14,590 nt of DNA, from contig CAIJMQ010000036.1 in assembly GCA_903821905.1 (NCBI GenBank), forward strand, positions 1 to 14,590, given 5' to 3'. The translations under genes and the position numbers were made by a program. This document shows positions 6,506 through 7,914 of the stretch, in pieces. The DNA comes from an uncultured bacterium (GTDB lineage Bacteria; CAIJMQ01). Under the pieces are notes generated by a model, which saw only the letters and a list, made by a program, of their open reading frames with translations, was not told the origin of the DNA and did not search any database. The first letter of the stretch is position 1. Every line of letters starts with the position of its first letter.

Positions 6506-6533
6506 ATTATACATAGTTTAAATAAAGTAGCAA
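6506..6533 (-). promoter_or_regulatory. Candidate sigma70-type promoter for the TPR/FecR/C11/CHASE2 cluster
   Basis: On the minus strand, TTGCTA (6533-6528) is followed after 16 bp by a perfect TATAAT (6511-6506). Transcription would begin near 6499, about 10 nt before the ATG at 6489 and downstream of the alternative ATG at 6507. AT-rich sequence produces such boxes by chance, so this is a candidate only. Confidence 0.45.
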
Positions 6534-6534
6534 G

Positions 6535-6553
6535 AGAAAAATAATATTTTTCT
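6535..6553. promoter_or_regulatory. AT-rich perfect palindrome just upstream of the candidate promoter
   Basis: AGAAAAAT-AAT-ATTTTTCT is an exact 8-bp inverted repeat with a 3-nt centre, lying 1 bp upstream of the -35 box proposed for the TPR gene. It could be an operator or the stem of a weak terminator from the operon upstream. On the minus strand its right arm ends in TTTTTCT, which only loosely resembles a terminator tail. Confidence 0.3.
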
Positions 6554-6560
6554 ATCTACT

Positions 6561-6660
6561 TCCCCCCTCATTCTTTCCCCGTGGAATTCTAAAGAATTCC
6601 CGGGACCAAGGTCCTTGAAATCGCATCCGCGATTTCTAAGGGCAGAATGAAAAAGGGGGA
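6561..6660. repeat. About 100-bp multi-hairpin palindromic element with TCCCCC/GGGGGA ends
   Basis: The element is bounded by TCCCCC (6561-6566) and its complement GGGGGA (6655-6660). A second inner pair extends this outer stem: TCATTCT (6568-6574) with AGAATGA (6644-6650). Inside lie three consecutive hairpins. The first pairs CCCG and GGAATTC (6578-6589, one bulged T) with GAATTCC and CGGG (6594-6604), with loop TAAA. The second is GGACC-AA-GGTCC (6603-6614), sharing two G residues with the first. The third is GAAATCGC-ATCC-GCGATTTC (6617-6636), extended by CTT/AAG. It lies in the gap after the homocitrate/citrate synthase-like gene and before the TPR gene. The layout resembles a small non-autonomous palindromic repeat (REP or MITE-like). 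Transcribed from either strand it would fold into a multi-branched RNA, and it may terminate or insulate the two operons. No clear target-site duplication is visible. Confidence 0.7.
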
Positions 6661-6672
6661 CTATTTGCAATT

Positions 6673-7914
6673 CTATGGAGGAGTAACAGTCATAATCTTT
6701 CTGGCTATATCAGGATAAGCGGCAATAAATTTTAATTCGTCTTCAACCAAAGGTTTCTGAGTATGGACATTTGCATACCTAACCAGTTCCAGTATTTTCG
6801 TTGCTTCTTTGTCATCTTTGAACTCTATTTCCATTTTGCCGTAGACATTCCTAAATCCTTTAATACCACTGTATTCACCAACCGTTATTCTTCTACCGGT
6901 TTCAATAATTTCCGGTTCCCCCCTACCTAATTCTTCGTAGTGATAAAGTTCGTAGTTTCTGGAATCTTTTAGAGCGCCGTCCACGTGGATACCTGATTCG
7001 TGTGCAAAAGCATTGTCTCCTACTCCAGGCTGATTAATAGGAATAGGAACATTGAAAGCATATGATGCGTATTTAGAAATCTTCCAAGCCATTTTTAAAT
7101 CTATGTTATCATCCATGGCATATTTATCTTTCAAACCGCTAGACTTTTTTATAGCCAATATTGTAGATACTAAATCTGCGTTGCCTGCTCTTTCTCCCAT
7201 TCCGTTAACAGTAGTATTTATATATGCATCTACTCCGCTGTCAACTGCTGCCTTAGCTCCGCCTATAGAAGTTGCAACAGCAATACCCAAATCGTTATGA
7301 CAGTGCAACTCAACACCTATTTTGACGGAAGCTACTATCTGGGATATTCTTTCATAAATAGAGAAAGGGTCATCGTATCCCAAAGTATCGCAGTATCTAA
7401 ATCTATCCGCTCCGGCTTCTTTAGCCGCAGCAGCAAATTCTATGAGAAAATTTACATCTGCTCTTGAAGCATCTTCCGCATTAACACCCACAGTTTTAAT
7501 CCCTTCCTTTTTAGCATATCGAGTAGCATCTACAATCATCCTGATTATGTCTTTTTTGGAATATTTACCTTCAAACTTACTGCTAAGCATTTGCTCGGAA
7601 GTAGATACTGAGATATTCATATCTTTGATACTGGTGAGTTCTACTGATTTTTCTATATCTTTAATTACAGGTCTGGACCATCCCGAAAGTATAATGGATT
7701 TAAACACACCTAATCTCTTCAGTTCAAGATTGGCATTGATATAGTTTATTTCGTGATTTGTAAATGGGAAACCCATTTCACTCTGATAAACACCCATTTT
7801 ATCAAGATACATATTTATTATCGTCTTCTGTAACTTTGCTAATCCCAACCGTGATGTCTGAACACCGTCTCTATTAGTTACATCCAAAATATGTATTTTC
7901 GGTTTCTTAGCCAT
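6673..7914 (-). CDS. Homocitrate/Re-citrate synthase-like DRE-TIM acyltransferase
   Basis: The 413-residue product belongs to the isopropylmalate/homocitrate synthase (DRE-TIM metallolyase) superfamily. Visible signatures are DVTNRDGVQT (11-20), a divergent form of the usual D-T-T-L-R-D-G-E-Q with the Arg-Asp pair at 15-16; metal-binding HCHND (204-208); NTTVNGMGERAGN (233-245), the second family signature; and FAHESGIH (303-310). These enzymes condense acetyl-CoA with a 2-oxoacid. Length and ending show it lacks the C-terminal allosteric domain of LeuA. No leu, lys or nif genes are adjacent, so the oxoacid is undecided: oxaloacetate (Re-citrate synthase), 2-oxoglutarate (homocitrate synthase) or another. 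The sequence type is one I associate with 'homocitrate synthase' annotations in strict anaerobes. ATG 7914 follows AGGAG at 11 nt. It lies 21 bp after serA, as the third gene of that operon. Confidence 0.85.
   Translation of the reverse strand: MAKKPKIHILDVTNRDGVQTSRLGLAKLQKTIINMYLDKMGVYQSEMGFPFTNHEINYINANLELKRLGVFKSIILSGWSRPVIKDIEKSVELTSIKDMNISVSTSEQMLSSKFEGKYSKKDIIRMIVDATRYAKKEGIKTVGVNAEDASRADVNFLIEFAAAAKEAGADRFRYCDTLGYDDPFSIYERISQIVASVKIGVELHCHNDLGIAVATSIGGAKAAVDSGVDAYINTTVNGMGERAGNADLVSTILAIKKSSGLKDKYAMDDNIDLKMAWKISKYASYAFNVPIPINQPGVGDNAFAHESGIHVDGALKDSRNYELYHYEELGRGEPEIIETGRRITVGEYSGIKGFRNVYGKMEIEFKDDKEATKILELVRYANVHTQKPLVEDELKFIAAYPDIARKIMTVTPP

Follow-up and report, generated by a model that had tools for sequence, protein, structure and literature searches.

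What kind of sequence occupies positions 6561-6660 of the window, the whole 14,590-nucleotide stretch of DNA that was analysed? An earlier note described these 100 bp as an outer inverted repeat enclosing three successive hairpins, and likened them to a non-autonomous mobile palindromic repeat or a structured RNA. The inverted repeats are present where that note had placed them, and the RNA fold of 6540-6680 reaches -51.6 kcal/mol, as compared to -32.6 +/- 4.0 kcal/mol in 200 shuffles (z -4.7; 0/200 as good). The feature lies in a 165-bp intergenic region (6508-6672), and the two neighbouring genes are both on the minus strand. Within 6561-6660, the minimum-energy fold consists of an outer stem, a hairpin A, an unpaired linker and a hairpin B. 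This stretch is probably a composite of two short palindromic DNA repeats, in which a core element lies in the loop of an outer hairpin.

The core measures 66 bp (6577-6642) and is matched by the covariance model R1 with an E-value of 2.1e-17. Its two hairpins are supported by the fold, by parsing and by covariation. Hairpin A (6578-6604) reads CCCG / bulged T6582 / GGAATTC-TAAA-GAATTCC / CGGG and hairpin B (6613-6641) reads CCTT / GAAATCGC-ATCC-GCGATTTC / bulged T6637 / AAGG, a single T being unpaired on the outer arm of each. They are separated by the linker ACCAAGGT (6605-6612), which forms with the flanking GG and CC the palindrome GGACCAAGGTCC (family form GGACYNNRGTCC). The middle stem of the three hairpins counted earlier, GGACC-AA-GGTCC (6603-6614), shares bases with the basal pairs of both A and B and does not form in the minimum-energy structure. 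Only two hairpins are hence found, and the presumed third is a conserved palindromic linker, which can pair solely as an alternative to the basal pairs of its neighbours.

The outer hairpin has a 5′ arm, TCCCCCC followed by TCATTCT (6561-6574), recognized from the fold and from its resemblance to a dispersed hairpin, TCCCCCCTGTTAGTTTT/AAAACTAGGGGGGA. Its 3′ arm, composed of AGAATGA, an unpaired AAAA and GGGGGA (6644-6660), was delimited by the fold and by comparing empty with occupied outer hairpins. In the RNA fold, 6561-6566 pair with 6655-6660 and 6568-6574 with 6644-6650. A further stem, AGAAAAATA/TATTTTTCT, is located just 5′ of the element at 6525-6556 and is lacking in the relatives at the orthologous place.

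The earlier note proposed a covariance-model search for further copies, which R1 made possible. Because most copies match on both strands, the number of matches is about twice that of copies, and the 18 matches in the window's genome correspond to approximately 9 copies. Three genomes of the same family gave at least 120, at least 112 and at least 58 matches, three genomes of the same class gave none, and eight genomes of other lineages gave 6 to 70. When relatives were sampled across the domain, 6 of 98 carried the core, the window's own genome included. BLASTN recovered three further partial copies in the window's genome and 17, 20 and 9 matches in the same-family relatives, while no copy was found in 37 other genomes. 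A search of the window's genome with the linker GGACYNARGTCC yielded additional copies; single-mismatch linker matches lacking the hairpins were discarded.

The distribution was extended by a pattern scan (a degenerate hairpin A, the linker and the start of B) over 84,980 species, which returned 28 stretches. Besides two near relatives (G002 and G003), these belong to Auribacterota, Elusimicrobia, Spirochaetes, UBP3, another Omnitrophota and other bacteria, and most matches from other lineages share the anatomy described above. Two matches in Collinsella (L103 and L106), in which the two hairpins do not form, were taken as chance. Viral contigs, phages and plasmids searched for the core gave no match. 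Such a range, from Ratteibacteria/Omnitrophota to Auribacterota, Elusimicrobia and Spirochaetes, suggests that the core is either very old or has been transferred.

Parsing yielded 50 cores at first and later 104, once one artefact had been removed. Each core opens with a C and four basal pairs (CCCG, CCTT, CCTC or CCCT), after which come a bulge of one base on the outer arm, a stem usually of 7-10 pairs and a loop of 3-5 nts. After the linker, the second half is the mirror image of the first and ends with a G. Across 32 aligned cores, GGA and CC are invariant within the linker motif GGACYNNRGTCC, both outermost basal pairs are C-G in either hairpin (32/32 copies) and 97.5% of the cells are paired. 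The compensatory changes that the earlier note had asked for are abundant, with 107 cells altered on both sides of the pair. The covariation reaches 0.415 versus 0.145 in shuffles (0/500 as high) and vanishes when the partner columns are slid by one to three positions. With many copies and such paired changes, the element is not the solitary, invariant structure that would have spoken against a repeat.

A strong fold and strong covariation could also suggest a structured RNA, such as an attenuator, an mRNA stabiliser or a terminator, copied by chance duplication within genomes, and 29 of 37 copies sit between co-oriented genes. However, an RNA under selection would be expected to use G-U pairs more, which would not be expected of DNA hairpins, and in the parsed cores only 18 of 2410 pairs (about 0.7%) are G-U and 10 are mismatched. 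The parser prefers Watson-Crick pairs, which somewhat biases this ratio, and the 32-core alignment agrees on the scarcity (7 G-U cells out of about 670). In addition, the folding of both strands gave nearly the same energies (-60.7 and -60.2 kcal/mol), no intrinsic terminator with a T-run was found at the element, and an Rfam scan of the feature returned no family at gathering scores. Nesting within hairpin loops, described below, would also be unexpected for a regulatory RNA. The RNA half of the earlier proposal thus appears unlikely, while its mobile-repeat half is well supported by the dispersed copies, the covariation, the nesting and the presence or absence of the element at orthologous places.

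Copies of this repeat are predominantly intergenic. In long loci, 39 of 42 lie outside ORFs of at least 100 aa, although such ORFs make up 84% of these loci (binomial, ~4e-28). Gene order around the window copy is conserved in three relatives. In G002 and G003, the orthologous intergenic gap measures about 40 bp and contains nothing of the element; in G001, the sequence at the orthologous place is unrelated to the element. Hence, either the window's lineage acquired the core and the outer hairpin or the other lineages lost them. That place in G001 (C34:39770-39938, L260) is occupied by another insert, GAAATAAATAGAAATACATGG...CCACGTATATCTATTTATCTCTATTTATTTC, which is partly palindromic. It was also observed that degenerate short repeats such as GTAATTGGTAATTAGTAA or AAATATCAAAAATCA often surround copies (flanks of L047-L055, L087, L091 and L101 in G002, and of L007, L234 and L244).

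Do the outer arms belong to the core? The outer arms differ in sequence between copies, yet the left flank pairs with the right one. For the cores with a 12-nt linker (n=58), flank-flank duplexes average -16.4 kcal/mol versus -11.5 kcal/mol when right flanks are exchanged between copies, with 34 of 58 at -15 kcal/mol or lower and 0/10000 permutations as strong. Cores with an 11-nt linker (n=46), by contrast, are flanked by A+T-rich sequences and display no such effect (9 of 46 at -15 kcal/mol or lower; 1391/10000 permutations), the two classes differing at p 6e-5. Hairpin-loop targeting is therefore not universal, since the 11-nt-linker cores have no preference for hairpins.

One frequent outer hairpin, TCCCCCCTGTTAGTTTT...AAAACTAGGGGGGA, is dispersed in its own right. 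Among 24 members examined, the loop is ordinary (5-8 nts) in 14, contains a different bulged hairpin in 6 and contains the twin core in 4, one of these 4 (L111) having a decayed linker and being assigned by reinterpretation. The window's outer arms share the ends of this family (TCCCCCC and GGGGGA) and differ in the inner half; judging from these ends, they probably belong to it. Just 5′ of TCCCCCC, (G)GAGTGCGAAG or GAGTGCGGAG is often present (L168, L177, L179, L180 and L195), and in G003 the outer hairpin is preceded by a full hairpin, CACTCCC..GGGAGTGCGAAG. These sequences suggest that the outer hairpin may be part of a larger two-hairpin element. A third repeat, CCCGAG...TGATTTC-loop-GAAATCA...CGGG, which forms a single bulged hairpin, occupies the twin core's kind of loop (CCCCCC...GGGGGG) at L171, L173, L174, L175, L181 and L098.

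Loops are also the sites at which cores enter one another. When each core was removed and the joined flanks were parsed again, five cores were found to interrupt another core, in every case in a hairpin loop (5/5) and never in a stem or in the linker; under uniform insertion along the host, this has a probability of ~1e-4 to 5e-4. Three more nested cases were recognized by eye (L031/L068, L064 and L110). Put together, the two halves of the host, GGAATCTTT^TAGATTCC, exactly restore the GGAATCTTTTAGATTCC of uninterrupted copies, and uninterrupted versions of the nested host cores exist in the same genome. These insertions thus took place without visible target duplication. The junction at the window copy, TCATTCTTT^CAGAATGA, is of the same kind. 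The recursive nesting constitutes a record of the order of insertions.

These observations bear on the claim that the outer inverted repeat is the end of a single element, that is, that outer arms and core form one unit with variable arms and that no insertion into hairpin loops took place. Both parts are missing from the relatives' orthologous site and may have arrived jointly. Nevertheless, the same outer hairpin is encountered with nothing in its loop, with the twin core or with another hairpin, cores lie in the loops of other cores that have uninterrupted versions in the same genome, and the 11-nt-linker cores have no outer hairpin at all. A single element is consequently improbable, and the outer repeat is more plausibly a host hairpin distinct from the core that it holds in its loop.

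The locus is thus best explained as two non-autonomous palindromic repeats, one nested in the other, and it is likely that the 66-bp core is a dispersed, REP/BIME-like mobile DNA that enters hairpin loops. All data come from draft metagenome-assembled genomes, and the mobility proposed here is a reading of sequence comparisons. Most likely, the core would move as folded single-stranded DNA and be joined, without target duplication, into short T-rich hairpin loops belonging either to its own kind or to other palindromic repeats. At the window locus, the outer hairpin would have come first and the core would then have entered the loop of this CCCCCC...GGGGG hairpin. IS200/IS605 elements insert without target duplication, and the duplication-free insertion into loops, together with the two bulged hairpins, fits a single-strand transposition of the HuH/Y1 type. 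We infer that an enzyme acts in trans, for which a HuH/Y1 transposase of the IS200/IS605-RAYT kind would be the first candidate.

The search for a transposase acting on the element's ends, as the earlier note had proposed, did not find one. Y1_Tnp (PF01797) had no match in the window's genome G000, which is 84% complete, nor in G002, which is 92% complete and has at least 50 core copies. It is present in 8 of 8 carriers of other lineages, and its frequency in carriers (12/14) versus other genomes (57/92) does not differ significantly (p 0.13). Around 38 Y1_Tnp genes from carriers and same-class relatives, no core was found within about 1.5 kb. The search hence gave no support to a RAYT as the mobiliser, Y1_Tnp being undetected in two carriers, never beside a copy among the genes examined and not significantly more frequent in carriers. 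The enzyme may act in trans, may have been lost from some carriers or may be of another family.

The same evidence weighs on a classical REP/BIME, in which a tail-to-tail pair of REPs is moved by the host RAYT (TnpA-REP). Two short, bulged, inverted hairpins, intergenic and in high copy number, are what REPs display (PMC8266576, PMC3733652), and Y1_Tnp genes occur in most of the carrier genomes, as given above. The bulge is needed for TnpA-REP activity on the E. coli REP, and recognition by the IS608 transposase likewise involves a stem base that is unpaired (PMC8266576). However, the tag and the linkage to a RAYT are two defining features of GTAG REPs (PMC3733652, PMC6006769, PMC8266576). In the parsed cores, no GTAG or GTGG tetranucleotide is found 0-2 nts 5′ of either hairpin; the bases beside hairpin B are R-G-T then CC, with the complement beside A, and the conserved motif is the palindromic linker GGACYNNRGTCC shared by the two hairpins. 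No copy flanks any of the 38 genes, two carriers have no detected Y1_Tnp, and in G001 a RAYT-like gene has its own flanking palindrome, unrelated to the core. Although the core has the short, intergenic, high-copy hairpins with bulged or perfect stems of a REP, membership among the GTAG REPs is not supported, and the classical REP/BIME is an unlikely explanation for an element that, in addition, sits in hairpin loops.

Other systems resemble the core in part. Group IIC introns prefer hairpin targets, a preference shared with other elements that target terminator hairpins; the core differs in being 66 bp long, in lacking intron domains and RNA-type covariation and in inserting into the loop itself. 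The REPs tagged with CGTC are palindromic, have no dedicated transposase and were also reported in Spirochaetes; they carry an unpaired CGTC-type tag, stems of 8-9 bp that start with A/T pairs and CCA-like tails (PMC3733652). The core has no such tag, and its bulged hairpins, which begin with C/G pairs, form a fixed pair. IS200/IS605 ends and their miniature derivatives (PATEs) comprise a pair of end hairpins whose unpaired bases are read by the transposase (PMC8266576), comparable to the outer-arm bulges of the core. The lack of target duplication is also shared, the host hairpin being split exactly in nested insertions. Unlike them, the core has no copy of tnpA between or near its hairpins, no full-length tnpA element with related ends was found among the Y1_Tnp genes examined, and no fixed left tetranucleotide was found, the context being T-rich on both sides.

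We place the element as a variant among the small non-autonomous palindromic repeats, with placement in hairpin loops as its unusual property. In the literature searched, which included few subscription journals, no description was found of the element, of the linker as a bacterial repeat or of REPs placed in loops. A bolder reading, offered tentatively, is that of a twin-hairpin superfamily new to the literature, which might span several uncultured phyla, target loops, build hairpin-in-hairpin nests and be moved by a not-yet-recognised enzyme. With an inner repeat so often found in the loops of other hairpins, it resembles a little-known class of very small parasitic DNA. If loops are chosen as the target, the copies would provide direct evidence, from the genome, for extruded or single-stranded hairpins in these cells and for their recognition by a mobile system. 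Finally, several RAYT-like Y1_Tnp genes were observed to adjoin palindromes centred on CCACCT..AGGTGG-like sequences, some on both sides (L046 1248-1280 and 1967-1991; L142 1258-1288 and 1963-1993; L133; L139), which are unrelated to the twin core.
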